64,000 nucleotides of DNA from Verrucomicrobiia bacterium (GTDB lineage: Bacteria > Verrucomicrobiota > Verrucomicrobiia > Opitutales > Cerasicoccaceae), in the NCBI GenBank assembly GCA_030425485.1, contig JAUIAM010000006.1:124001-188000 (forward strand), given 5' to 3'. A program made the translations under genes and the position numbers. The notes below the pieces were generated by a model. It did no database searches. It was not told the origin of the DNA and worked only from the letters and a program-made list of their open reading frames with translations. Within the stretch, counting starts at the first letter, position 1. The number at the start of each line of letters is the position of its first letter. Positions 7,944 through 36,910 of this stretch are shown here, piece by piece.

Positions 7944-8097
7944 CGCATAACGCTAAAGTAGTACGAGAGGCCTGAAAAATCTTCCACCTATCTGTGTGTT
8001 TCTGGGGTTGCCAGATGACGGCCAGAGGTTACATCGTGGTAGCTTTTAGTTACGCAATCTGCGAAACCCTTTATCCCCAAATCGAGTCATAACCAGC

Positions 8098-9153
8098 TTG
8101 GAATCCGACCAGCCAGCGATAGAAGTCATCAATCTGACCAAGTGCTACGGCCCGCGCAAGGCGATCGACGGCATCAACTTTGAGGTGTCGCGCGGCCAGG
8201 TGGTGGGCTTTCTCGGGCCTAACGGCGCGGGCAAGAGCACCACGATGCGCGTGCTCAGTGGCATCATGCCAGCCACCTCCGGCGTGGCGCGTATATGCGG
8301 TTATCCGGTGGCCAGCCAGTCAGCCGAGGTAAAGAAGCGTATCGGCTACATGCCCGAGTCCAATCCGCTGCCGGAGGACATGCGGGTCATCGAGTACCTG
8401 CGCTATCGCGCGCATTTGAAGGAAATCCCGACGCGTAAGATTCGCGACCGGGTGGAGGAGGCCATGGAGGTGTGCGAACTCCACCGCAAGCCCCGCCGCC
8501 GCCTCATCGGGACACTTTCCAAGGGCTACCGTCAGCGCGTGGGCATTGCGGACGCCATCCTGGCCCGTCCGGACGTCATCATCATGGACGAGCCGACCAT
8601 TGGCCTGGACCCGCACCAGATTTTGGGCATCCGCAACCTGATTGATACCCTGCGCGGCGAGATGACGGTGATTCTCTCCAGCCACATCCTGCCCGAGATC
8701 GAAATCTGCTGTGACAAGGTCATCATCATCAACCAGGGGCGCGTGGTGGCCAACGGTACCTCGCAGAGTCTGCGCCAGCAGTTCCTGCCCAACACACGCT
8801 ACCGCCTGCGCACCAGTCTTTCCAAGCCCAACCTCGAGCTCATCCTGCCGAGCGTGGGCCGCGAGCTGCGGCTGCACAGCAGCATGGAGACGGACCTGGC
8901 CGGTGTGCGCGAGTTTATCGTCGAGGCGCCCTCGACACTCGATTTGACCGAAGCCTTTATCGATGCCCTCCGCGCCCGGCATGCGAGTATTCACGAGATT
9001 GCCCGCCTCCAGCCCAACCTGGAGGATATCTTTATGTCTGCGACCAAACGCAGTTGGGACGAAGTGCTGCCCGAGACTAACACGAAAAAAGCCAAGCAGG
9101 CCGACGAGGAAGACGAGGAGGGGAGTGAAACGCCCGCCCAGACCAAGGCCTAA
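8098..9153 (+). CDS. ABC transporter ATP-binding protein (GldA/ABC-2 type)
   Basis: The 351-residue cytoplasmic ATPase has Walker A GPNGAGKST (about 40-48), signature LSKGYRQRVGIA (about 140-151) and Walker B VIIMDEPTIGLD (about 160-171). The C-terminal tail is acidic (QADEEDEEGSET). It begins a five-gene same-strand run with the permease, the GldG-like protein, the DUF4340 protein and the AsmA-like protein. The layout resembles the gliding-associated GldA-GldF-GldG transporter, whose substrate is unknown. The start is uncertain: the frame opens at a TTG (8098) with no obvious Shine-Dalgarno, and the next ATG lies inside the Walker A region, too late to be right. Confidence 0.9.
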   Translation: MESDQPAIEVINLTKCYGPRKAIDGINFEVSRGQVVGFLGPNGAGKSTTMRVLSGIMPATSGVARICGYPVASQSAEVKKRIGYMPESNPLPEDMRVIEYLRYRAHLKEIPTRKIRDRVEEAMEVCELHRKPRRRLIGTLSKGYRQRVGIADAILARPDVIIMDEPTIGLDPHQILGIRNLIDTLRGEMTVILSSHILPEIEICCDKVIIINQGRVVANGTSQSLRQQFLPNTRYRLRTSLSKPNLELILPSVGRELRLHSSMETDLAGVREFIVEAPSTLDLTEAFIDALRARHASIHEIARLQPNLEDIFMSATKRSWDEVLPETNTKKAKQADEEDEEGSETPAQTKA

Positions 9154-9162
9154 GCCCGGAGT

Positions 9163-9927
9163 ATGAGACACTTTCTGACCCTCTTTTCCCACGAGCTGCG
9201 CATGCTGCTGATTGCGCCGGCGACCTATGTTGCCTCGGTACTTTTCCTGCTGCTGATGGGGTTGATCTACCTGTTGGTGCTCAACGAAGCCGGCACGCGC
9301 GAGTCCGACCTGCCGCCTTCCGTGTTGTTTTTTCAGGTGTTCTGGGTGCCAGTCTTTTTCATGGTACCGCTGCTGACCATGCGCAGCATCGCCGAAGAGC
9401 GACGTCTGGGCACGCTTGAGGCGCTTATGACGACCCCGGCTACGGCCTTTCAAATCGTCCTGAGCAAGTTCCTCGGCGCCTATGTGTTTTACCTCCTGCT
9501 GTGGGGGATGACGATCGCCTTTCCCTACATCGCCGCTTACGGGCTCGAAAGCACGGCGGACAAGCAGAGTGTGCTCGAGATTGCCCCCATGATGGGCGGC
9601 TACCTCTTCATTGCCCTGAGCGGTCTGCTCTACATCGCGCTCGGCATTTTTGCCAGCAGCCTGACGCGCAGCCAGCTCGTGGCCGGGATGCTTTGCTTCA
9701 GCCTGCTGTTCATCATCGTCATCAGCGGGCAACTGTTGCTGCGGCTGCCGGTACAGGATTTTTCGTGGATGCACTGGCTGGACGCCCCGTTGGAGTACAT
9801 CCGCTCATTCAAGCACCTGGAGGACTTTAGTCGCGGCATGGTCGATACGCGGCCCTTTGTCATGTACCTCAGTAACGCCGCCCTGCTCCTGGGCATCACC
9901 ACGCTCGTCGTAGAATCCAAGGCCTGA
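9163..9927 (+). CDS. ABC-2 type transporter permease (GldF-like)
   Basis: The protein has 254 residues with about six membrane spans. After a first helix (LIAPATYVASVLFLLLMGLI) comes the ABC-2 segment FMVPLLTMRSIAEERRLGTL, in which the E/R-rich turn is typical of this permease family. It follows the ATPase after 9 bp and ends 2 bp before the GldG-like gene, so the three are almost certainly cotranscribed and form one complex. Confidence 0.88.
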   Translation: MRHFLTLFSHELRMLLIAPATYVASVLFLLLMGLIYLLVLNEAGTRESDLPPSVLFFQVFWVPVFFMVPLLTMRSIAEERRLGTLEALMTTPATAFQIVLSKFLGAYVFYLLLWGMTIAFPYIAAYGLESTADKQSVLEIAPMMGGYLFIALSGLLYIALGIFASSLTRSQLVAGMLCFSLLFIIVISGQLLLRLPVQDFSWMHWLDAPLEYIRSFKHLEDFSRGMVDTRPFVMYLSNAALLLGITTLVVESKA

Positions 9928-9929
9928 TC

Positions 9930-11396
9930 ATGTCGAGAATGGAAGAATTTAGCTACGTGCGCTGGGTGCGCCGCTTGAACCGGACGGCACAGATCATCCT
10001 GTTTGTTACGCTGGTCATGGCGATCAACTACATCGCGTCGGTTAATTTCGAGCGCTACGACCTCACGCGTGACCACCGCTTTTCGCTTTCGGCTGAGACG
10101 AAGGCGTATCTGGCGCAATTGCCCGATGACGTGCGCATCATCGTGACAACGCCCTCGGAGTCAGCCTCTGACGATGTGCGCTTTGTCCACAAGCACGTTA
10201 CGCGCTTGCTGCGTGAGTACGAGTCTTCGAGCAACTCCCGCATCAACGTCGAGTACATCAATGTTTACCGCCAGAGCGAGAAGGCCGAGGAGTTGGTCAA
10301 CCGCTTCTCCATCAGCCCGGAGCAGGACAGCGTGATTATCGTCAGCAGTGGCGACAATTACAAGCAGGTGCTCCCGCCGGACCTGTGGAAAGTCGATGAA
10401 GAGGGCCCGACAGCCTTTACCGGGGAGCAGGCCTTTACCTCGGCTATCCTCGATGTGACGGACCAGAACAACAAGACGATTTACTTCCTCAAGGGCCACG
10501 GGGAAATGCAGCCCGATGACGTCGATCCGTTGCGTGGGCTTTCTCAGGCTTCGTACTTCCTGCGTCAGCGAAACTTCGAGCAGGGGATGCTCGACCTGAC
10601 CACCGTGCCCAAGGTGCCGGAAGATGCCGGGCTCGTTGTGGTGGCCGGACCGCAAACGGAGCTGCTTCCGCCCGAGCAGGAGAAACTGCGCCGCTACCTG
10701 AGTGAGCAGAATGGGCGCATGTTGGTGCTGCTCGACCCGGCCCGCTCGCACGGTATGGACGACCTCTTTTACGACTGGGGGGTGCTGGCCAGCGACATGA
10801 TTGTCATTGAGGCTTCCAATGAGTTTATCGCCTCCGAGGGAGACTCGCTCATCGGCAACTTCAAGGAACACTCGCTGACGGACATCCTGCGCAAAAACCA
10901 GCTCAAGGTACTGGTCGGGCTAAGCCGTCCGATCCGCTTTGACGAGGGCTCACCCATTGATGCGAGCCTGACCGTGACCGAGCTCATGCTCTCATCGCCC
11001 CAGAGCTGGGCCGAGACGGAGTACCAGAAGGACCCCATCAGCTTTGATAATAACTACGACATTGCCGGACCGGTGCCCATCGCCGTTGTCTCGGAGCGTT
11101 CCGCTGGCGACCGCTTTGGGCTGAACATCCCCGGCGGTCGCCTGATGGTCATCGGTAACACCAATGTGTTCAGCAACAACCGCTTTAACACCGCGGCCAA
11201 CGAGCTGCTTTTCCACAACATCATCCACTGGATTCTCGACCAGGAGTCGCTGGTCAACATCCAGCCCCGCAAGCTGGAGGATTACCAGATCACGCTCAGC
11301 CGCCAGGACCTCATCGACACGGGTTTTCGCCTCCTGATTCTTCCAGGCGGAGTTGCCTGTCTGGGGATTCTCATTTCCATTATACGTCGCCGCTAA
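9930..11396 (+). CDS. GldG-like ABC transporter accessory protein
   Basis: The protein has 488 residues. A cytoplasmic N-terminus is followed by one membrane helix (IILFVTLVMAINYIASV), then a large periplasmic ABC_transp_aux-type domain with the start LTRDHRFSLSAETKAYLAQL, the region FLKGHGEMQP, and LLDPARSHGMDDLFYDWGV. A second helix sits at the extreme C-terminus (LLILPGGVACLGILISI) and ends in RRR. This matches GldG family topology. In Bacteroidota GldG is needed for gliding; here the role is unknown and no other gliding genes are visible. Confidence 0.87.
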   Translation: MSRMEEFSYVRWVRRLNRTAQIILFVTLVMAINYIASVNFERYDLTRDHRFSLSAETKAYLAQLPDDVRIIVTTPSESASDDVRFVHKHVTRLLREYESSSNSRINVEYINVYRQSEKAEELVNRFSISPEQDSVIIVSSGDNYKQVLPPDLWKVDEEGPTAFTGEQAFTSAILDVTDQNNKTIYFLKGHGEMQPDDVDPLRGLSQASYFLRQRNFEQGMLDLTTVPKVPEDAGLVVVAGPQTELLPPEQEKLRRYLSEQNGRMLVLLDPARSHGMDDLFYDWGVLASDMIVIEASNEFIASEGDSLIGNFKEHSLTDILRKNQLKVLVGLSRPIRFDEGSPIDASLTVTELMLSSPQSWAETEYQKDPISFDNNYDIAGPVPIAVVSERSAGDRFGLNIPGGRLMVIGNTNVFSNNRFNTAANELLFHNIIHWILDQESLVNIQPRKLEDYQITLSRQDLIDTGFRLLILPGGVACLGILISIIRRR

Positions 11397-11411
11397 CTTT
11401 CTCTTCCCACC

Positions 11412-13388
11412 ATGCGTATCAAGCTCACCATCGTTCTGATTATCCTGAATCTGGCGGCCTTCTACTGGATTTACGAGCTGGAGAAGGGCGCGGACCCGCG
11501 CGACTCCTACCGCAAGGAAACGGTCAACGTCCTGCCCAACGCGGCCAGCGTGGACGAGGTTCGCATCCAGGTTAACATGGGCCAAAAGCAGGAGGAGCGC
11601 GTCATCAAGCGCACCCGCAACTACTGGGAGATCACCAGCCCCTTCGTCTGGGCCGCCAACGAGAACGCCATCCAGCGCATTTTAACCCAGCTACAGTTCC
11701 TGGAAAAGGAGACAAGCATCCCGCTGGAGGATATTGAAAAAAGCTCGCAGAGCTTGGCCGACTTTGGTCTGGAAAACCCGACCATCATCCTCAGTTACCA
11801 CGCCGGTGACGACGTTACAGTGCTTAAGATCGGTTCACCTACCGAGATGGGCAACCGCATCTACCTGCTGCCCGAGGGCAGCGACGAGGTTTATGTCGTG
11901 AGCAACGAGCTGCTCAAGGCCATCACGATCAGTCTTTCGGAGTTGCGCAGCGACCGCGTGATTAACATCCCGCTCTTTGAGGTGCGCTCGCTCAGTATCG
12001 AGCAGGGCGACCAGCGTTACCGCTTTGAGGAAAGCGACGATACCTGGTGGCTTGTTACGCCTATCCGCGCCCGGGCCGATAATGCCCGCATGGACGCTGC
12101 CCTGGGCGAATTCGTCTCCCTGCGCAGCCTGAACATCGTTCGCGACCTGCCCAGCGGGGGTGAGGCGGCCATCTTTGGGCAGCCCATGATGCGCGTCACG
12201 GTCAGCGGAAACAACCGCCGTCGCACACTGGTGGTGGGGTCCAAGGTGGAGAACCTGCACGAGGGAGAACCGACCCTGCACTATGCCCGACTGGAGGATG
12301 ATCCGGCCTCGGGCACGATTTTCACCATCGATGTCTCCAAGCTGGAAGGGCTGCAAGATCCGGCTGAGCGGCTACGGGAGCGCAGGTTCCTCCGCTTCGA
12401 TCCGGCCAGTGTGAACGCGGTCGAGATCACCGAAGATGGCAAGACGCTTACCCTGCAAAAGCTGGAAAAGCGTCAAGCCGAGGAGCCCGATTCGTGGCAG
12501 ATTTTCCGTCGCGGTGCCGATGGCTCGATTTTGACCGAGCCTGCGGATTCCAACATCGTTGTCCGTTTGCTGGTAGAGCTGCGGAAGCTTGAGGCCCGTG
12601 AATTCGTCAGCGACGCGCCCTCGGGCGAAGACCTCAAGCAGTGGGGGCTGGCTGAGCCGCGCACGCGCTTGACGCTCAAGGACGGGACGGACCAAACGCT
12701 TTTGCTCGGCCTCGGTGCCGGAGATGGTAAGCTCTACGCCAAGCTCGAAAGCGAGCCCTTTGTTTACGAAGTCGGTGCTCTTATTTTGCCGTATATCAGC
12801 TCAGACCCCTTGCTTTACCGCTCCCGCGTGCTCAATCAGGCCCTGGTGGGTGCCCGCGTGGTTAGCCTGGACTTGACTGATCTGGAGACCGGAGAAACCC
12901 TCCTCTCGGACAAGATCGACCAGAGTAAGGAGACCTGGAGCATGTACTTGCAGTCTCGCCCCGAGAAGGAGAACGCGAGCATCATCGCCTTGATTGACCA
13001 GTTGGAAAACTTCCATGTGCAGAGTTACCAGTACACGAAGTTTGCCCCGCTCCCGGGGAAGCCCTGGCGCTACCGCCTGGTGGTGGAGTACTTCTTACCC
13101 GGCAGCACGGACAGCACGACCACGCGTCGCGAGTATGACTTTAGCGTGCGTTCCGAGGCCAACACGCAGGTGGGTGGTTCCGTCGAGGACAAGCTCACCT
13201 TCATGCTGGTGCAGCCCATGATCGACGCGCTCTTCCAACTGACGTTCGTCAAGGATACACCCCAATTACCGGAAACACCCGCTGGGGTGGAGTCCGCCAC
13301 TCAGCCCGCACTACCCGAAACCGACGCCAGTCCGGCCAAGTCAGCCGCTCCGCCAGCCACGCCAGCCAGCGGGGGCGAAACCCGCTAG
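11412..13388 (+). CDS. DUF4340 domain-containing membrane-anchored protein
   Basis: The protein has 658 residues, an N-terminal signal anchor (LTIVLIILNLAAFYWIYELE) and a long soluble extracytoplasmic part containing repeated DUF4340 units. Each unit has the pattern of a 'W.I..P....AN' strand (WEITSPFVWAANENAIQ, WWLVTPIRARADNARMD, WQIFRRGADGSIL). The C-terminus is a proline/alanine/serine-rich tail. DUF4340 proteins habitually follow GldG-like genes in Verrucomicrobiota and Planctomycetota, and are thought to be part of that transporter assembly. The biochemical role is not known. Confidence 0.85.
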   Translation: MRIKLTIVLIILNLAAFYWIYELEKGADPRDSYRKETVNVLPNAASVDEVRIQVNMGQKQEERVIKRTRNYWEITSPFVWAANENAIQRILTQLQFLEKETSIPLEDIEKSSQSLADFGLENPTIILSYHAGDDVTVLKIGSPTEMGNRIYLLPEGSDEVYVVSNELLKAITISLSELRSDRVINIPLFEVRSLSIEQGDQRYRFEESDDTWWLVTPIRARADNARMDAALGEFVSLRSLNIVRDLPSGGEAAIFGQPMMRVTVSGNNRRRTLVVGSKVENLHEGEPTLHYARLEDDPASGTIFTIDVSKLEGLQDPAERLRERRFLRFDPASVNAVEITEDGKTLTLQKLEKRQAEEPDSWQIFRRGADGSILTEPADSNIVVRLLVELRKLEAREFVSDAPSGEDLKQWGLAEPRTRLTLKDGTDQTLLLGLGAGDGKLYAKLESEPFVYEVGALILPYISSDPLLYRSRVLNQALVGARVVSLDLTDLETGETLLSDKIDQSKETWSMYLQSRPEKENASIIALIDQLENFHVQSYQYTKFAPLPGKPWRYRLVVEYFLPGSTDSTTTRREYDFSVRSEANTQVGGSVEDKLTFMLVQPMIDALFQLTFVKDTPQLPETPAGVESATQPALPETDASPAKSAAPPATPASGGETR

Positions 13389-13399
13389 GATCGACTGCC

Positions 13400-16225
13400 A
13401 TGAAAGGGGCCAAATCAGGTGCCAAGCTCGGGTTCGGGAGTCGACTCCTGTGCTGGGGCATTCGTGTGCTGAATATCGGGCTTGGCCTGTTTCTGTTTGT
13501 GCAGGTGATCTTGCTGGTGGTGCTGCTGAAGATTGGCGAAATCCCGGTGCCGGAGTTCGTTATCGAAAAGCTGGAGCGAAAGCTGGCCGTGGAGGGTGTC
13601 AAGGTGGAGCTAAGCAGCGTGGAACTGGACCTGCGCGGTGTGCTCTTGCTGCGGGGGGTAAAGCTCGGGCTCAACGAGTACAGCGAGTACCTGGTCGAGA
13701 CCGATCTCGTGCTCCTGCATTTTCCACCTTGGGCACTCTTTAGTGGTAGCTTTATGCCGGACGAGGTCTGGGTATCGCACTGCCAGCTCTTCTGTCCGGC
13801 GGTGCTATCGCCCACGGGTCAGCGCGAGGCTGTGGCCGACGATATTTACTCGGAGATCAAAATTTCGCGCGATGAGATCACGCTGGAGCGCCTACTCTTA
13901 CGGGTCGGTTCGCTCGACGCTGTCATCCGCGGCACGATGGTTCGTCCGCAAGGTGAGCTGGCTAAAGAGGATGATGAGGAGCTGGACGGGCACTCGCTGG
14001 CCGAGACCTACTCCGAGGTTTGTCATGCGATGCTCGGGGCCCACACCTGGCTCAAGCGATTTACCGAGCCAGAGTTGTGGATCAGCCTCCGCATCGAGGA
14101 AGAGGAGTCGCGCGCGTACATGCGTCTGCAGACGCAGGACTTTAACCTCGGTAACGGCGCTGAGGGCAAGCACGTCGTGCTCAAGGCGCTGGGGGCGGGC
14201 CGCGGCCCGGATAATTACCAACTGCGGCGCGTTATGTTTCAGGTGCGCGATGTGGCTTGGAAAGAAGAGGTTTCGGCAGGTTCTTTGCAGGCCATCGCCC
14301 GCTTACCGGAGCAGAGTAAGCAGCGTTGGCCGCAGACGCTCAATATCGGGGGCCACGATCTGCAGGGGGGGGGGCTTTCGCTGAGTGCGTTTTCCGGAAA
14401 GCTGAATCTGGCCGACATCCATCGTCCCGAGGGCACCCTGTACCTACAGGACGGCACCAACTGGATGAACGTGAACGGGTGGGTCGATACCGAGAAGGAG
14501 ACGGCTGATGTCGCGGTGGATGCCTTTTGGGACCCGACCTATTTCTTCAGTTCTTCGCTGCTGGGGGACAAGGCCAAGTTTCCCGATCTGGAGTGTCAGG
14601 AGCGCCCGCGCTGGGGGGCACGTGTTTATCTGGACGAGCACTATGCTTTTGACCACCTCGATGTCACGGTGGATTTTGGCAAAACCCGGCTGGAGAGTCT
14701 TCAACTGGAGTCTGTCTATGCGGAAGGCTCGGGTAGCCCGGATAAGATCGCCATCACCAAGGCTATCCTGGCGACGGATCGTTACTCCATTGAAGGGAGC
14801 TATTTTCAGAACCTGAAAACGAACCACTACCGCTTTCTGGTGCGCGGTCACCTCGACCCCATCGACATCGATTTCATCGTGGATGAGGACTGGTGGGCGC
14901 CGCTGTGGAAGCGTTTCGAGTATCATGGGCAGTTGCCTTATGCCAACCTCGACCTGAGCGGGTATTATGGAGGCGGCACGAAGGACAAATTCTTCTTCGG
15001 CTATAACGAGTTTTGGGATTTCTCTTACAACGGCATCCCCATGGACGGCATGTCGGCCATGCTCTGGCGCTCGCCACTCCAGCTCACGCTCTATGATATG
15101 AAGGGGCACGGCAAGGACGGTGACTTCAACGGTACCCTGCAGTTTAACTACACGGAAAAGGGCGACGACCGGAAGTCGCTTGCCTTCGCCGTTGCGAGCA
15201 CGCTGCCTCTCAACGAAGCAGCCGAGCTGGTTGGTCCCGAAGCGATCGATATCGCCAAGGAGTTCCGGACGACGGCTCCGCCCGAGCTTCAGGTGACGGG
15301 CCTAATCTTTGGCGAGGACAGCGATCAGCCCCCGGGCGACCTCTACCTCAATATCCACGGGACGATGGATTCGCAGGTCACCTATGAGGGCTTCGTCTTC
15401 GACCACGTGGACTTTGATGCGGTCAAAAGCCCGGATGCGATTCATCTGCCCGACTTCACCTTTGGCATGGCCCAGGGCTCGGGCACGGGTGACGCCAAGG
15501 TCACCCTCCACAGCGACGAGCACCGCACGCTGGAAATTTCCATCAACATGAAGGACGCCAAGTACCTCCTGCTCAAAGAGGCGGTGCCGTTCTTCGACGA
15601 CGGCGCAGAGACCGAACACGGCGCCAAGGCGGTGACGAAGTCCGCCGAATCGTTGGCCAAAACCAAGCAGAACGAGCCTAAAAAGTTGGCCCAGGAGGCT
15701 GAGGCTTTGGTCGATCTGGAGATGTCGGTCGGCGGAACCCTCGGCGAGTTGGATAGCTTTAACGGCTACGGGCGGTTTAAGATTCGGGAGGCGTTCCTGG
15801 GCCAGTTGCACCTCTTTGGCGGGCTCTCTCGCGTGGTGCAGTCCGTCGGGCTCAACCTCGGCACGCTTGAGTTTACCCATGGGCACGCGCCCTTTCTCAT
15901 GGGGCAGGGCTACCTGTACTTCCCAAACCTCGTCGTGGGCGGAGACACGGCCAAGGTAAAGGCCAACGGTAACCTCAAGCTCGGGGACGATACCCTGAAC
16001 TTTTACGTCTCCCTCTATCCGCTGGGCGGGATAAACGTGCCCATCGTTTCGCAGATTTTCTCCATCATCAACCCCTTGACCAACACGATCGAGTCTCACC
16101 TGACCGGGACCGTCCAGGAGCCCAATTGGGACGTAGGCATCAGCCTGGGGGCGGTTTTCTCCGGGCAGGAGAAGGTCGAAAACCTGACTGGTCAGAGCTT
16201 CCCCAAGGGATTTCTGGACGAGTAG
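13400..16225 (+). CDS. Large AsmA-like membrane-anchored protein
   Basis: The protein has 941 residues with one N-terminal membrane helix (about 25-50) and a very long beta-rich periplasmic part. The C-terminal 150 residues carry an AsmA-like C-terminal signature: FGGLSRVVQSVGLNLGTLEF, GQGYLYFPNLVVGG and PLTNTIESHLTGTVQEPNW. AsmA/TamB/YhdP proteins form grooved bridges that carry phospholipids to the outer membrane. Being last in the ABC/GldG/DUF4340 run suggests a shared envelope job. A charged, lysine-rich linker near residues 735-775 interrupts the beta pattern. The specific function is inferred. Confidence 0.8.
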   Translation: MKGAKSGAKLGFGSRLLCWGIRVLNIGLGLFLFVQVILLVVLLKIGEIPVPEFVIEKLERKLAVEGVKVELSSVELDLRGVLLLRGVKLGLNEYSEYLVETDLVLLHFPPWALFSGSFMPDEVWVSHCQLFCPAVLSPTGQREAVADDIYSEIKISRDEITLERLLLRVGSLDAVIRGTMVRPQGELAKEDDEELDGHSLAETYSEVCHAMLGAHTWLKRFTEPELWISLRIEEEESRAYMRLQTQDFNLGNGAEGKHVVLKALGAGRGPDNYQLRRVMFQVRDVAWKEEVSAGSLQAIARLPEQSKQRWPQTLNIGGHDLQGGGLSLSAFSGKLNLADIHRPEGTLYLQDGTNWMNVNGWVDTEKETADVAVDAFWDPTYFFSSSLLGDKAKFPDLECQERPRWGARVYLDEHYAFDHLDVTVDFGKTRLESLQLESVYAEGSGSPDKIAITKAILATDRYSIEGSYFQNLKTNHYRFLVRGHLDPIDIDFIVDEDWWAPLWKRFEYHGQLPYANLDLSGYYGGGTKDKFFFGYNEFWDFSYNGIPMDGMSAMLWRSPLQLTLYDMKGHGKDGDFNGTLQFNYTEKGDDRKSLAFAVASTLPLNEAAELVGPEAIDIAKEFRTTAPPELQVTGLIFGEDSDQPPGDLYLNIHGTMDSQVTYEGFVFDHVDFDAVKSPDAIHLPDFTFGMAQGSGTGDAKVTLHSDEHRTLEISINMKDAKYLLLKEAVPFFDDGAETEHGAKAVTKSAESLAKTKQNEPKKLAQEAEALVDLEMSVGGTLGELDSFNGYGRFKIREAFLGQLHLFGGLSRVVQSVGLNLGTLEFTHGHAPFLMGQGYLYFPNLVVGGDTAKVKANGNLKLGDDTLNFYVSLYPLGGINVPIVSQIFSIINPLTNTIESHLTGTVQEPNWDVGISLGAVFSGQEKVENLTGQSFPKGFLDE

Positions 16226-16275: not shown

Positions 16276-16755
16276 ATGCCCAAGCCCCTGCAGCTAACCA
16301 TTATTTCCGGCGGCCAGACTGGGGTGGACCGGGCAGCACTGGATGCAGCCCTGGCGGCGGGTGTGCCCTGTGGAGGCTTTTGCCCACGCGGACGCAAGGC
16401 CGAGGACGGCGTCATCCCGGCGCGTTACCCGCTCACGGAATCACTGAGCAGCCAGTACCAAATGCGGACGCTGGAGAATATCCTGACCACGGACGGCACC
16501 GTGATTTTCTACGAGGGGGTGCTTCGGGGTGGGACGCGCCTGACTGCCCGATTGGCGCAATTGCACCTAAAACCGCTTCTTTTGCTTGATCTCGCGGCGT
16601 TGGAGGACAAGTTAGCGGCTCGACAAATCCGGACTTTTTGCCGTCAGCATCGCCTCAAGCGTCTGAACGTGGCTGGTCCCCGAAAAAGTCAGCATCCGGG
16701 CCTTGGTGAGCGGGTTCTGGTCATTTTGGGGGCATTGCTGGCCAAAAATGCCTGA
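16276..16755 (+). CDS. Putative molybdenum carrier / YpsA-like Rossmann protein
   Basis: The protein has 159 residues. Its opening is the signature IISGGQTGVDRAALDAALAAG followed by GGFCPRGRKAEDG and ARYPLTE, as in the Rossmann-fold family annotated as putative molybdenum carrier proteins (related to SLOG/YpsA nucleotide-binding folds). The C-terminus is less typical. Actual metal or ligand binding cannot be read from the sequence. It sits between the AsmA-like gene and accB on the same strand. Confidence 0.82.
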   Translation: MPKPLQLTIISGGQTGVDRAALDAALAAGVPCGGFCPRGRKAEDGVIPARYPLTESLSSQYQMRTLENILTTDGTVIFYEGVLRGGTRLTARLAQLHLKPLLLLDLAALEDKLAARQIRTFCRQHRLKRLNVAGPRKSQHPGLGERVLVILGALLAKNA

Positions 16756-16885
16756 AAATCGTCACATTTGCGTTACAACAAAACATTGCCCGCGGCATAA
16801 AAACTCTCCTAGTGTCTTAACTTTCTGACTACTCGAGCTTCTACGGCTCCTATGACATTCGAAACTGGAAAGGCATTTCTCCCTC

Positions 16886-17344
16886 ATGGATCTCAAGGAA
16901 ATTAAACAAATCATCGACCTGATGAAGCGCTCGGACTTGACGGAGTTCGAGATCGAAGAGCAGGATCTTAAGCTGCGCATTTGCCGCGATTCCAAGCACG
17001 CCGTGCCGGTGGTGGCCCACGCCCCGGTCGCAGCCGCCCCCGTGGCAGCACCCGCGCCTGTCGCACCCGCTCCGGCAGCATCTGCCCCCGCTGAGGACAA
17101 GAACGCGCTGGTGGTAAAGTCCCCCATGGTCGGCACTTTCTACCGTTCCCCCAGTCCGGACAGTAAGCCCTTTGTTGACGTGGGCACTGCTGTGCAGCCT
17201 GACTCTGTTGTCTGCATCATCGAGGCCATGAAGGTGATGAACGAAATTCAGTCTGAGGTGAAGGGCATCATCACCGAAATGCTGGTTGAGAACGGACAGG
17301 CCGTCGAGTACGGACAACCCCTCTTCAAGCTCAAGGCTTCCTGA
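16886..17344 (+). CDS. accB: Acetyl-CoA carboxylase biotin carboxyl carrier protein (BCCP)
   Basis: The protein has 152 residues. An N-terminal helix pair (about 1-35) leads into an alanine/proline-rich swinging linker (about 40-70), then a biotinyl domain with [12 protein letters not shown], where the lysine near 116 is the biotinylation site. It carries carboxybiotin between AccC and the carboxyltransferase in fatty-acid initiation. accC follows after 58 bp on the same strand. BirA, which would biotinylate it, is encoded at 6187-7188. No FapR- or FadR-like operator was recognised in the 130 bp upstream. Confidence 0.95.
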
Positions 17345-17402
17345 GCCCATTTTTCTTCCGACCAGTGACCGGGCGATGTCAGCGCGGTTACGCCGATTTG
17401 TC

Positions 17403-18782
17403 ATGATTCAAAAAGTCCTTATTGCCAACCGTGGTGAAATCGCCCTGCGCATCGTGCGGGCTTGCCGCGAGCTCGGTGTCAAAACTCTTGCGGTATATTC
17501 CGAGGCCGACGAGCAGTCCCTGCATGTACAGTTGGCCGACGAGGCCATCTGCATCGGCAGCGCCCCTTCATCCGACAGCTACCTCAAGGCCGACCGCATC
17601 ATCAGCGCGGCCGAAGTCGCCGATGTGGACGCCATCCACCCCGGCTACGGCTTCCTATCGGAAAACGCCGAGTTCGCCGAGCAGTGCGAGAGCTGCAACA
17701 TCAAGTTCATCGGACCCAGCTCCGAGACCATCCGCCTCATGGGGGACAAGGCTATGGCCAAAGCCGTGGCCAAAAAGGCTAAGGCTCCTGTCATCCCCGG
17801 CAGCGAAGGCCCGATCAAGTCAGAGGCCGAGGCGGTAAAAATCGCCAAGGAAATCGGCTTTCCGGTCATCATCAAGGCGGTCGCCGGTGGTGGGGGTAAG
17901 GGCATGCGCCTGGCCCACAATGCCGTGGCCTTTGCTCGCGAGTTCGAGATGGCCCGCGCCGAAGCCGAAAAGGCCTTTGGTAACGGCGACGTCTACGTCG
18001 AAAAGTTTATCGAAGAGCCGCGCCACATCGAAATCCAGCTTCTGGCCGATGAGCACGGCAAGGTACTTCACTTGGGTGAGCGCGACTGCTCCGTCCAGCG
18101 CCGCTACCAGAAAGTGGTGGAAGAGGCCCCGTCGCCTTTCGTTGATGACAAGATGCGGGCCAAAATGGGCCGCGCTGCTGTCCGCATCGCCGAAGCCTGC
18201 AACTACCAGAATGCCGGTACGGTGGAGTTCCTCGTCGACAAAAACGGCGATTTCTACTTCATCGAGATGAACACCCGCATTCAGGTGGAGCACGGCGTGA
18301 CCGAGGAGATTACCGGGCTGGACCTGGTTAAGCGCCAGATACGCATTGCCAGCGGTGAGCGCCTCGACCTGGAGCAGAAGGACATCACCTTTACCCGGCA
18401 CGCCATCGAGTGTCGCATCAACGCCGAAGACCCGGCACGTAATTTCGCCCCCTGCCCGGGAAAAATCGACCTGTATTACTCACCCGGCGGCCACGGTGTG
18501 CGTGTGGACTCCCACATCTATGGTGGCTACGAGGTGCCCCCGCACTACGATAGCATGATCGCCAAGCTCATTACCTACGGCAAGACTCGTGAGGTCGCGA
18601 TTGACCGCATGTACCGCGCGCTCAATGAGTATATTATTCGCGGCATCCGTACCTCGATTCCGTTTTGCTCGGCCATCATGAAAGACCCGGTATTCCGCAA
18701 TGGGGATGCCACCACCAAGTTTGTGGGCGACTTCCTTGAGCGCACGCCAAAGGACCTTTTTACCCCGGGTGACGACGCCTGA
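17403..18782 (+). CDS. accC: Acetyl-CoA carboxylase, biotin carboxylase subunit
   Basis: The 459-residue ATP-grasp enzyme carboxylates biotin on BCCP using bicarbonate and ATP. It shows the N-terminal [18 protein letters not shown], the glycine loop [22 protein letters not shown], and the catalytic region [20 protein letters not shown]. The ATG at 17403 is chosen because [11 protein letters not shown] is the family N-terminus; the frame stays open 39 codons upstream but that extension resembles nothing. The residue after EH is Gly-Val rather than the more usual Pro-Val. Confidence 0.95.
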
Positions 18783-25868: not shown

Positions 25869-26654
25869 ATGAATCCCTTTAAGCTGCTATTAAAACCCTT
25901 TGGATGCCTGTTCTGGTTTTTGGGCGGCGGCGTTTTCCTTATCCTGATCGCACTGGTGGTGCTGCTCTGGCTGGCCAAGTCCTGGGCGCCCAGTGCCATG
26001 TCGGGCTGGATGGAGCGCACGAGCGGTTTCCCTGTTCGGATTGATGCGACCGACATCGGGCTCATCGATCAGACCATTACCTTTGAGGACGTGGTCATCC
26101 TGAATCCCTCCGACTTTGAGGACAACGACTTCCTGCGCATTCGCCAACTGGTGTTCAAGATCCCCTACCGTAACGTGCTGCGGGGAAATTTCCGCGCGAC
26201 AGAGGTCGAGCTGGAGATCGAAAAGCTGGACATCCTCGTGTTGCCCAGCGGGCGGAGCAACCTCTGGACTTTTATCGAAAACATCTCCTATGAGCCGCCG
26301 CGCCTGATTGACAGTAGTGAGCAACCGCCCGCGCTGGAGCGTTTCAGCCTGAGACTGGGGGGCGTCACGCTCTCCGATCAGGGGACCGGGGCGCAAATCC
26401 TCTACCGCGACCAACTCGACTACGCCCGGGAATTCGTCCACATCGAGCGCTCGAAGGAGGTCTTTGAGGACGTGAAATCGGACCTGCGACGCTTCAAGCC
26501 GCCGGGCATTGAGCCCGTTTTTTTTCAGGCCCTTTTCGCCAGTATGCCCGTGAGCAGTTTCCCGGACATCACACCCGTTTCGCCCGATATTATCCCGGAG
26601 GAATGGGAATTGCTGATGAACTTTGCACCCGAGGAAACCCCAAAAAGCCCTTGA
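25869..26654 (+). CDS. Membrane-anchored protein with AsmA-like N-terminus
   Basis: The protein has 261 residues. A strong N-terminal helix (FLILIALVVLLWLAKSW, preceded by FWFLGGGV) anchors an extracytoplasmic domain of beta strands in which 'VRIDATDIGLIDQTITFEDV' and 'FRATEVELEIEKLDI' recall the start of AsmA-type proteins. It lacks the long C-terminal part of those proteins, so it may be a short relative. Function is not recognised. It is followed after 45 bp by grpE on the same strand. Confidence 0.65.
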   Translation: MNPFKLLLKPFGCLFWFLGGGVFLILIALVVLLWLAKSWAPSAMSGWMERTSGFPVRIDATDIGLIDQTITFEDVVILNPSDFEDNDFLRIRQLVFKIPYRNVLRGNFRATEVELEIEKLDILVLPSGRSNLWTFIENISYEPPRLIDSSEQPPALERFSLRLGGVTLSDQGTGAQILYRDQLDYAREFVHIERSKEVFEDVKSDLRRFKPPGIEPVFFQALFASMPVSSFPDITPVSPDIIPEEWELLMNFAPEETPKSP

Positions 26655-33813: not shown

Positions 33814-34851
33814 TTAGGAGTTCTCGTCGTGGGAGCTTTCCGGCTTGGAGATGGCCTCACGCATGGCGGTGTCGGACTGGATGTTCTGGAGCTTGTAGTA
33901 GTCCATAAAGCCCATCTTGCCGGAGCGGAGGGACTCGGCCAGAGCGAGCGGCACTTCGGCCTCGGCTTCGACCACCTTGGCCTGCATCTCTTCGACCTTG
34001 GCCTTCATCTCCTGCTCAAGGGCGACAGCGGCAGCGCGGCGGATTTCGGCCTGGGCCTGAGCCATGTTCTTGTTGGCGATAGCCTGGGCTTCCTGGAGCT
34101 TGGCCCCGATGTTGTCACCCACGTCCACGTCGGCGATGTCGATGGAAATGATTTCGAAGGCCGTGCCGACGTCCAAGCCGCGCTCGAGCACGTTCTTGGA
34201 GATGCGGTCCGGGTTTTCGAGGACAAACTTGTAGCTCTCGGCCGAGCCGATGGTGGTAACGATGCCTTCGCCGACACGGGCGATGATGGTTTCCTCAAGC
34301 GCACTGCCGACGTAGTTTTCGAGGTTAGAGCGTACGGTGACACGGGCGCGGGCCTTGACTTGGATGCCGTCCTTGGCCACACCGTCGATGGTGTTGCGGC
34401 CTTGGCTGGGCTGGGGGCAGTCGATGACCTTGGGGTTAATCGAGGTATGCACGGCTTCGAGGACGGACTTGCTGGTGCCCTTCGTGGCGAGGTCGATGGC
34501 GCAGGCCTTGTCCCACTCCAGGGTGATGCCGGCCTTCTTGGCGTTAATGAGCGCCTGCACGGTTTGGATGATGTCACCACCGGCCATGTACTGGGTCTCG
34601 ATTTCGTTGATCGACAGGTCGATGCCGGCTTTAACCGACATGATGCGCGCGTCAACGATGAGCGAGTAGGGCAGTTTGCGCAGGAATCGCATAGCAAAGA
34701 GTGAGCCGAAGCCTACCGATGCCCCCGAGGAGAGCGCCTTCATCCAGACGGAGAAAAAGGAGAAGAAGAGAATCAGCAGAATGATGAGGAAAATGCCGAC
34801 GAGAATCAGGCCGACTTCCATCACTGAGATAGCAAGAGTGAGTGTGTTCAT
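33814..34851 (-). CDS. floA: Flotillin-like protein FloA
   Basis: The protein has 345 residues. Two N-terminal hydrophobic segments ([18 protein letters not shown], then a re-entrant region near [15 protein letters not shown]) are followed by the PHB/SPFH-like domain ([38 protein letters not shown]) and a long Ala/Glu coiled coil (about 255-315). This matches the UPF0365/YqfA (FloA) family of membrane-microdomain scaffolds. Its ATG overlaps the stop of the short nfeD gene as ATGA, the conserved nfeD-floA arrangement. Confidence 0.95.
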
Positions 34852-35312
34852 GATGCTTTTACGATAAGTGTTGCGCGTTCGATGCGGATAACGGTGATAG
34901 CGGTATTTTTCTGGATGTAGCCGCCCTGACAGGAGGCTTCAAAGGTGCGGTCTCCAATCTGAACTCTGCCTGAGGGTGCCATCGTTGTCAAGGCGGTGCC
35001 TGATTGACCGATGATAGAGTCGTCTGTCTGGGTGTCGACCGAGACAGCAGTGATGGAGGATTCGGAGCTGATGAATTTTCGCAGCGGCCCGCTCTTGAGC
35101 ATTTTCAGTTCGAGAATGAAAAACAGCAGACTGGCCACGCACGAGCACACGAAAATAATCAGTGCCACCTGCACGCCCATCTCGTTATAGGCGATGATTG
35201 TCGCTGCCACCAGACAGCCGACGGCCAGCAAGGCAAGCACTGTGCCGGGGACGATGATCTCCAGCAAAAAGAGCACCAGGGCGACAACAAGGAGCGAAAT
35301 GATGAGGGACAT
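34848..35312 (-). CDS. Short NfeD-like membrane protein
   Basis: The protein has 154 residues. Two or three hydrophobic helices occupy the first 75 residues ([38 protein letters not shown]), then a C-terminal OB-fold NfeD domain ([20 protein letters not shown]). It lacks a protease domain. It lies between the long NfeD (2 bp upstream) and FloA (4-bp overlap). NfeD proteins pair with flotillins or stomatins in microdomains, and their exact biochemical role is unsettled. Confidence 0.88.
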
Positions 35313-35314
35313 GC

Positions 35315-36910
35315 TTAGGAAATGTGTTCGACGATCAGCGTGAAGTCTTTGTGTTGGGTCACGCGAATGCGCTGTCCGCAGTTAATTTGCCCGTGGTTAC
35401 AGCGTGCGGTATAGAGTTGGCCGTCGATCTCCACCTGCCCGATGGGGCGAAGTTCTTTCGTTACCCGTCCGGTTGCCCCGATCTCCGGCTGGCCGCCTTG
35501 CTCCCCGCTGCTGTTGCCCGCATTGGTCACGGACACGCCCTTGACGCTACCAGTGGAGATGAGCGGCCGGAACAGCGGAGACTCGGGCAGGTAGCGCCAG
35601 GCAAGGACCAGGCCGATCCCGGCGATGCAAAAGGCCAGAAGCGCATCTTTTGCCGCACTCCACAGGGCGTCTGGTGACACGGTGATGCCGCCGTCGGGCG
35701 TGGGCCAGATGTCGGCCATCGACCAGATGAGCGCACTCAGGATGCACAGTGCACCCAGGGCGAGCGCGACAACGATGCCGGGCATGATAAAGATCTCGAT
35801 CACGATGAGCACGACGCCGAGCAGGAAAAGCAGGATAGGCTCGTTCCCCGCCAGGCCGGCAAAGTAGTTGCTGACGAACACGATGACCACGAGCGCTATG
35901 CCGAGGCCGCCGATGACGCCGAAAGATGGCGTCTTGATCTCGATGATAATCATGAGCACGCCGATGCCAAAGAGCACGGGCGCGATGGTCTCAAACCACT
36001 TGGCAAACTCCTCGGACCAACTGAGGTGAAACTCGCGGATGTTGTAGTTTCCGGCTCCGTAGCGGGCATTGAGCAGGTCATCCACAGACTCATAGGTGCC
36101 AGAGGAGAGGAGCGGCTCGGGCGGGTTGCCGTATGTTTGGGCCGCTTCGTCCGCCGTTAAAGAGAGCAGCTCATCCTTTTCCTTCAAAATGTTGCCGTCG
36201 ATCTCCAGTTCGTAGGAGGAGTCCATCATGGCCCGCTGAACATCGGCACGGTAGCGATTATCGCCGGAGACGACACGGACCTTCGCCTTGAGGTAGCTAT
36301 CGATCTTCTGCTTCATGGTCTCTCCAATTTCTTCGCCACCACCAGAGATGACGGCTGCCGCACCCATGATGCCACCGGGAGAGAAGTAAATGTCGTTGCA
36401 TGCAATGGAAATATACGAACCGGCGGAGATGGCTTCGTCGTTTACGTAGGTGATGGTCTCGCCCTTGAAATTGCCCAGGGCTTCCATCATTTCGAGGGTC
36501 ACGTCAAGCCGTCCGCCGGGGGTGTCCATATCGAGGATGATGGTTTCTACGTCGTTCTCGATGGCCTCCTTGAGCGCACGACGCAGGATGTAGAGCTGAG
36601 GTTTGCCAATCGGTCCGGAGATGGGCACGACGTACACATCGAACCCGCCTTCAGGAGGATTCGGTAGGGCTTTGACAGTGGCGGTGGGTGCGGTGATGGT
36701 CTCGGTCGCTTCCTCGATGCTCTCCACTTCCACTCGGTCAGGGTCGAGGGTTTCCGTTGCCGTCTGGTCGGGAGTTTCGGGTGCCGTGTCGCTAGTCTCG
36801 GTGGAATCAGCAAGTGTCCCACCAGATTTATCGGCTGCGTTGGACTGGCCCGCGAGGGTGAGCAGCAGGAGCGAGAGTAGGCAGAGCAGGAATCCCCATT
36901 TTTGCATCAC
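35315..36910 (-). CDS. Long NfeD: ClpP-class membrane-bound serine protease
   Basis: The protein has 531 residues. A signal peptide (LLCLLSLLLLTLAGQSNA) and acidic linker are followed by a ClpP/crotonase-like protease domain with MDTPGGRLDVTLEMM (about 128-142) and the nucleophile motif NDEAISAGSY, giving Ser162. The catalytic Lys is probably in MKQK near 200-202, close to the Ser-Lys spacing of the 1510-N stomatin protease. Four to five membrane helices and a C-terminal NfeD OB-fold follow. It heads the nfeD-nfeD-floA operon. Confidence 0.92.
   Translation of the reverse strand: MMQKWGFLLCLLSLLLLTLAGQSNAADKSGGTLADSTETSDTAPETPDQTATETLDPDRVEVESIEEATETITAPTATVKALPNPPEGGFDVYVVPISGPIGKPQLYILRRALKEAIENDVETIILDMDTPGGRLDVTLEMMEALGNFKGETITYVNDEAISAGSYISIACNDIYFSPGGIMGAAAVISGGGEEIGETMKQKIDSYLKAKVRVVSGDNRYRADVQRAMMDSSYELEIDGNILKEKDELLSLTADEAAQTYGNPPEPLLSSGTYESVDDLLNARYGAGNYNIREFHLSWSEEFAKWFETIAPVLFGIGVLMIIIEIKTPSFGVIGGLGIALVVIVFVSNYFAGLAGNEPILLFLLGVVLIVIEIFIMPGIVVALALGALCILSALIWSMADIWPTPDGGITVSPDALWSAAKDALLAFCIAGIGLVLAWRYLPESPLFRPLISTGSVKGVSVTNAGNSSGEQGGQPEIGATGRVTKELRPIGQVEIDGQLYTARCNHGQINCGQRIRVTQHKDFTLIVEHIS

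Follow-up and report, generated by a model that had tools for sequence, protein, structure and literature searches.

We analysed a stretch of 64,000 nucleotides (hereafter the window) from a Verrucomicrobiia bacterium of the family Cerasicoccaceae (contig JAUIAM010000006.1 of assembly GCA_030425485.1, positions 124,001 to 188,000), whose genome sequence is 3.81 Mb in size and 98.2% complete. Five open reading frames spanning 8098-16225 encoded an ATP-binding cassette (ABC) ATPase, an ABC-2 permease, a GldG-like subunit, a DUF4340 protein and an AsmA-like protein, in this order (Table 1). A tightly packed five-gene cluster of ABC, GldG, DUF4340 and AsmA-like genes had been noticed in an earlier reading of the sequence (the original prediction), and this was borne out, as all five genes are located on the plus strand with intergenic gaps of 9, 2, 15 and 11 bp. 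The five genes make up a conserved unit, and this unit is more conserved than its flanks.

Table 1. The five-gene cluster and the adjoining features, with coordinates of the window.
Feature	Position	Strand	Remarks
ABC ATPase (GldA/DrrA-like)	8098..9153	+	351 aa; TTG start; ABC_tran 8.8e-28
ABC-2 permease	9163..9927	+	254 aa; ABC2_membrane_3 2.8e-12; six transmembrane-like segments; nearest NCBIfam model GldF, below cut-off
GldG-like subunit	9930..11396	+	488 aa; ABC_transp_aux PF09822 2.2e-21 and DUF7088 2.2e-13
DUF4340 protein	11412..13388	+	658 aa; DUF4340 1.3e-47, three stretches
AsmA-like protein	13400..16225	+	941 aa; N-terminal transmembrane-like helix, 52 predicted strands
coaX-to-ATPase gap, possible promoter region	7944..8097	+	154 bp
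cpYpsA, accB and accC, downstream, outside the conserved unit	16276..18782	+	same strand as the cluster

Relatives of the locus were fetched by GldG alignment alone (one peptide pattern from order-level sequences), and the best 80 of 137 were used as named loci. Their titles are almost all Opitutia, Puniceicoccaceae, Opitutaceae or Verrucomicrobia, mostly of one order, and the closest named relatives by GldG identity among these 80 were a Verrucomicrobiota metagenome-assembled genome (MAG) with 71%, a Verrucomicrobiia MAG with 53% and Cerasicoccus with 49%, which puts the window in an Opitutales-like branch. The AsmA-like gene directly followed the DUF4340 gene in 75 of the 75 loci with remaining sequence; the contigs of the other five ended earlier. 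Genes for the ATPase and the permease were both present in 73 of the 75, and the other two loci begin at a contig end. The stop codon of DUF4340 and the first plausible AsmA start were separated by a median of 32.5 bp (66 measured loci). To control for gene-order inertia, we grouped the two genes nearest to the unit on either side (first neighbours were available downstream in 65 and upstream in 70 loci); the commonest flanking families occurred in only 23, 20 and 13 loci. In the window nadC, birA and coaX lie upstream of the cluster, and at least one of them was found upstream in 29/60 loci. Other recurrent flanks were a histidine kinase, a trypsin/PDZ protease, DNA ligase, DnaA, NIF3, a pseudouridine synthase, PrmA, an aminotransferase, DUF2851 and one family without match; an additional conserved subunit was not found among the recurrent flanks. 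The linkage in 75/75 loci against variable flanks disfavours a neighbourhood by chance or by order only. Among single loci, the contig of L156 is titled Porticoccaceae and has the same gene order with GldG identity of 42% (probably a misnamed or mixed MAG), and at L197 (13545-16410) the AsmA-like gene appears as four separate frames, which may be broken or reflect sequencing errors.

The distribution was analysed in 144 genomes, all from the phylum Verrucomicrobiota. Long DUF4340 proteins (profile E<=1e-20) were named type A, and AsmA profile matches at E<=1e-50 were regarded as strong, both cut-offs being set after the lists were viewed. The window AsmA protein as sole query found 61/144 genomes, and a profile from 38 relatives found 116/144 at E<=1e-3 and 67 at E<=1e-50; DUF4340 was present in 110/144 and PF09822 in 112/144 genomes. 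Type-A DUF4340 was present in 68/144 genomes, and the AsmA gene was linked in 50 of these 68. The 50 belong to 18 of 28 families, some of them outside the class of the window, and comprise 46 fetched genomes with strong AsmA, two with weaker matches, the source genome and G115, where the linkage was deduced across two contigs from coordinates; within this set, G130 is truncated where its contig stops, and in G140 the gap amounts to about 1.9 kb. Linkage was found in 23 of 24 genomes of the window's own order, and the remaining linked genomes belong outside its class. Of 77 phylum-wide loci, 46 contained the AsmA family; the same-strand families next in frequency were seen in at most 11. One group that occurred in 29 loci of this comparison, almost all on the opposite strand over the ATPase and permease genes, was taken as antisense shadow frames and dropped. 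The conserved neighbourhood of the AsmA-like gene beside GldG and DUF4340, on which the original prediction depended, is thus strongly supported, in the named loci as well as across the phylum.

Type-A DUF4340 and strong AsmA occurred together in 62 of the 144 genomes, type A only in six, strong AsmA only in five and neither in 71 (Fisher p 2e-27, a descriptive value which ignores shared ancestry). Of the 18 type-A genomes without linkage, 14 carried a strong AsmA match elsewhere and one (G124) had no AsmA match listed; in this group G098 is counted as unlinked only by different contigs, the contig of G104 ends about 560 bp past DUF4340, and that of G107 ends at DUF4340. When 68 fetched loci (a set different from the 68 type-A genomes, with the window absent) were placed in a midpoint-rooted GldG tree, linked states lay on distant sides, with five Fitch changes between linked and unlinked. 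In ten fetched loci of the family f7 the long DUF4340 was diverged and scored under the cut-off for type A, and AsmA was not adjacent.

A second GldG/DUF4340 system is present in the phylum, with longer GldG (frames of ~628-681 aa) and shorter DUF4340 (frames of ~337-513 aa). It is similar to the five-gene unit in the order ATPase, permease, GldG and DUF4340, seen in most of 18 loci, but unlike it has no AsmA match nearby at any of the 18 loci fetched (L114-L131). Because the loci with short DUF4340 lack the AsmA neighbour, it is the long three-stretch type of DUF4340 that, as sampled, comes with an AsmA partner. The source genome contains one PF09822 match. In two loci of the second system (L125 and L129), permease and GldG form a single frame of ~980 aa. 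Unlinked AsmA genes had three recurrent neighbours with housekeeping functions: PriA, a radical-SAM/TRAM protein (presumably MiaB-like) and an AP-endonuclease-type TIM barrel; three other neighbours had no Pfam match.

The P-loop, signature, DEP and H-loop residues of the ATPase were located in columns at least 90% conserved across 38 aligned sequences. The first two proteins have the features of an ABC-2 exporter: the ATPase carries the P-loop, signature, Walker B and H-loop residues, and its partner is an ABC-2 permease. Transmembrane-like segments were absent from the ATPase, numbered six in the permease, were located one at each end of GldG, and occurred once, at the N-terminus, in the DUF4340 protein and the AsmA-like protein. 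The GldG profile matched structures of IFT52 (E 6.6e-10), pointing to a relation to the IFT52 GIFT domain. The nearest NCBIfam models of the first three proteins were GldA, GldF and GldG, all scoring below the equivalog cut-offs (274.9 against 402.6, 106.4 against 288.5 and 87.8 against 389.85 bits, respectively). So the "GldFG-type" transporter of the original prediction is right as to the nearest named relatives, but with scores so far under the cut-offs the term describes a resemblance.

The fourth protein matched PF14238 (DUF4340) with 162.8 bits, above the cut-off of 25. Its AlphaFold model (predicted local distance difference test (pLDDT) 89.9, predicted template modelling score (pTM) 0.75) showed repeated mixed alpha/beta units on a single N-terminal helix and a low-confidence Pro/Ala-rich tail. 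Residues 478-613 resembled the thioesterase-like protein 4q0y_C (Z 7.8, root-mean-square deviation (rmsd) 3.9, 114 aligned), a comparison which barely covered the parts outside this C-terminal region. By sequence, the DUF4340 profile found no convincing match among solved structures (Crov588, E 0.0027, no stretch passing). One genome of the family f11 had two DUF4340 frames, of 615 aa and 509 aa.

The AlphaFold2 model of the AsmA-like protein, built with 61 sequences (pLDDT 86.9, pTM 0.64), consisted of a helix at residues 13-45 followed by 52 strands of at least three residues (41 of at least seven) with short helices between them, and it was poorly predicted around residues 735-756. Together with the transmembrane-like segment at 16-52, the model predicts an N-terminal anchor and a long beta-rich body. 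The strands were amphipathic (2.49 against 1.56 with standard deviation 0.18 in 2000 shuffles), as may be seen in any beta sandwich; this would be consistent with a lipid groove but is not specific for one. Beta strands are spaced 4.8 Angstrom apart, and if the 41 strands ran as one hypothetical continuous sheet, it would measure about 20 nm, on the order of the periplasm width. At E<=1e-3, 19 of 38 relatives matched YhdP, three matched AsmA and one matched DUF748. By sequence, the window protein itself carries the AsmA-like label only weakly; support for this label comes from these relatives and from the modelled fold. The AsmA profile found no convincing match among solved structures by sequence (MIC60, E 0.29). 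When a known fold was sought for the whole model, the best hits were generic, with both Foldseek (ApoB100, E 3e-6, TM-score 0.22, and LptD) and VIA-align (an outer-membrane barrel, Z 9.2).

Our favoured explanation, with a probability of roughly 45%, is that the five proteins make up a single envelope machine in which the ABC part would load lipid onto the AsmA-like bridge. It stands on the gene order, the phylum-deep conservation, the co-occurrence, the ABC motifs, the membrane anchors and the long beta-rich fold. The ATPase and permease would form an inner-membrane ABC-2 transporter, with GldG and the DUF4340 protein as its putative periplasmic subunits anchored in the membrane, and a groove-shaped AsmA-like protein would span the periplasm as a bridge. 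Hydrolysis of ATP may serve to extract a lipid from the inner membrane, most likely a glycerophospholipid and possibly a glycolipid; the GldG/DUF4340 part would pass it to the AsmA groove, and the lipid would then move to the outer membrane. We infer the interaction, the lipid substrate, the continuous groove, the outward direction and the ATP-powered loading. The original prediction went further and suggested a complete inner-to-outer membrane lipid route. Such a route is plausible; it agrees with the predicted fold, and also with the source genome, where the TamB domain PF04357 had no match (6 of 14 controls matched). "Complete" is too strong, because an outer-membrane partner did not turn up in the conserved unit.

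Several observations weigh against this lipid-loading machine. The window AsmA-like protein matched YhdP PF13116 only in residues 815-912, with E 4.3e-7 and 28.7 bits, under the curated 46 bits, and the protein evolves fast, with a median identity of 18% between 40 relatives and the window protein. The alignment of its model with the TamB chain 9xdc_B (Z 6.0, 216 aligned, rmsd 5.7) speaks for the machine, but this row ranked 48th, tied with unrelated barrels, and a Z under 8 may merely reflect a common arrangement; the fold also matched generic beta-sheet proteins, including ApoB100, LptD, outer-membrane barrels and OspA. Elsewhere in the class of the window, AsmA is not adjacent to the transporter genes (0 of 18 fetched loci linked). 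Two genomes of 0.9 Mb (G036 and G057; loci L238 and L239) keep the AsmA-like gene beside priA with no DUF4340 match, so AsmA can work without DUF4340. The source genome has, away from the cluster, three PF05170 AsmA matches, one above the curated cut-off, and so the AsmA-like protein of the cluster is not the sole candidate bridge. Finally, a DUF4340 protein of Verrucomicrobium spinosum holds an essential domain according to the available part of one report (PMC12283558), which favours the machine, but this protein may belong to either GldG/DUF4340 system.

The PF05170 match above the cut-off was an AsmA-family protein with a 1072-aa frame (G000:C28:31284-32063, L224; 32.4 against 29.8 bits). 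In the window itself, a 261-aa protein at 25869-26654 (+) matched DUF748, which we take to be a member of the AsmA clan, with E 7.4e-9 and 34.7 bits, under the cut-off of 50. The source genome also contained two MCE matches.

The strongest competing explanation, which we regard as somewhat doubtful, is that the AsmA-like gene is co-regulated but independent, so that one operon would serve two separate functions in envelope growth, and the transporter exports a polysaccharide precursor, a lipoprotein or a small lipid. The unlinked transporters in the rest of the class and the two 0.9-Mb genomes with AsmA alone speak for such a pair, as do the paralogous shorter system without AsmA neighbour and the fatty-acid synthesis gene accB, which lies within 4 kb downstream in 3/60 named loci (L132, L135 and L163). 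It is less easily reconciled with a five-gene block that persists in 18 families amid variable other neighbours, or with both partners being kept in 14 of the 18 genomes where they are unlinked. Having weighed the other possible bridges in the genome and the essential DUF4340 of V. spinosum, we prefer the powered lipid bridge over the independent pair, because an ABC transporter with two anchored extra subunits is tied to an AsmA-like bridge.

It is unlikely that the unit acts in the assembly of outer-membrane proteins or lipoproteins, or in surface export, in a TamB- or GspN-like manner instead of bulk lipid supply. A role of TamB in protein assembly has been proposed, in the accessible parts of two papers (PMC11014939, PMC11341756), but no Omp85/TamA-type gene was recurrent beside the unit, and the weak match of the AsmA-like protein to GspN of the type II secretion system (E 0.22) was not significant. 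Inherited gene-order inertia without functional coupling is very improbable: the 80 named loci are mostly of one order and the counts ignore shared ancestry, but the flanks are shuffled while the five genes stay joined, also outside the window's class. A relative of GldAFG for gliding or type 9 secretion, as the nearest models GldA, GldF and GldG could suggest, is the least probable of all, since these three scores are under the curated cut-offs, the search for SprA_N in the source genome was empty (no control genome matched either, and the search did not extend to GldK-N), and DUF4340 and AsmA are, to our knowledge, absent from the Bacteroidota gliding set. The lack of gliding genes named in the original prediction is therefore a presumption.

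Compared with GldA-GldF-GldG of gliding Bacteroidota, the unit shares an ATPase, an ABC-2 permease and a GldG with DUF7088 and ABC_transp_aux, but differs by the scores under the equivalog cut-offs and by the additional three-stretch DUF4340 and AsmA-like proteins. Like YhdP, TamB and YdbH of E. coli, the AsmA-like protein has one N-terminal transmembrane segment, a long beta-rich body and a C-terminal YhdP-like stretch; unlike them, it is encoded together with an ABC transporter in a conserved gene block. In the Lpt bridge for lipopolysaccharide (LPS), an ABC motor is joined to a beta groove that spans the periplasm, and the five-gene unit can be read, by analogy, as working like an Lpt bridge built from AsmA-like and GldFG-like parts. 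This analogy is a functional one: the subunits are different, and the source genome has its own LptF/LptG matches, two in number and located elsewhere, because of which LPS probably has its own route. By sequence every part falls into a known superfamily. Within the open literature searched, subscription papers and preprints aside, DUF4340 was named in two papers, no paper joining GldG with DUF4340 was found and none combining "AsmA-like", "ABC transporter" and "gene neighborhood"; GldG and AsmA together gave only two Flavobacterium papers, which in their available parts were on other topics.

As for other features around the cluster, a consensus scan listed no promoter-like site within the gap upstream of the ATPase gene. 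At 33814-36910 (-) of the window, FloA flotillin-like and NfeD genes lie close together on the same strand, as a membrane-microdomain pair.

For E. coli, AsmA-like proteins have been proposed as phospholipid bridges between the membranes, with a movement proposed to be diffusive in the available part of that work (PMC8593681). How lipids are loaded onto such bridges at the inner membrane, and the role of ATP in it, is a question posed in print (PMC10900882). In the accessible text of the same paper, a dedicated inner-membrane lipid extraction machinery of E. coli and Pseudomonas, if needed, should be essential and none had been identified; LptBFG and LolCDE are doubted as lipid extractors, and synthesis-driven flow is given as the alternative. 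The gene block described here, present across much of the phylum, is a concrete candidate motor for AsmA-like lipid bridges, and it is testable by genetics and structure; targeted mutagenesis exists for V. spinosum, as the available part of PMC12283558 describes. If the lipid-loading reading is true, it would supply inner-membrane machinery of the kind not identified for YhdP, TamB and YdbH. It is a tentative but possible view that a dedicated ATP-driven inner-membrane loader and an AsmA-like bridge would together give an energised phospholipid line encoded by one operon, perhaps a main route in much of Verrucomicrobiota.

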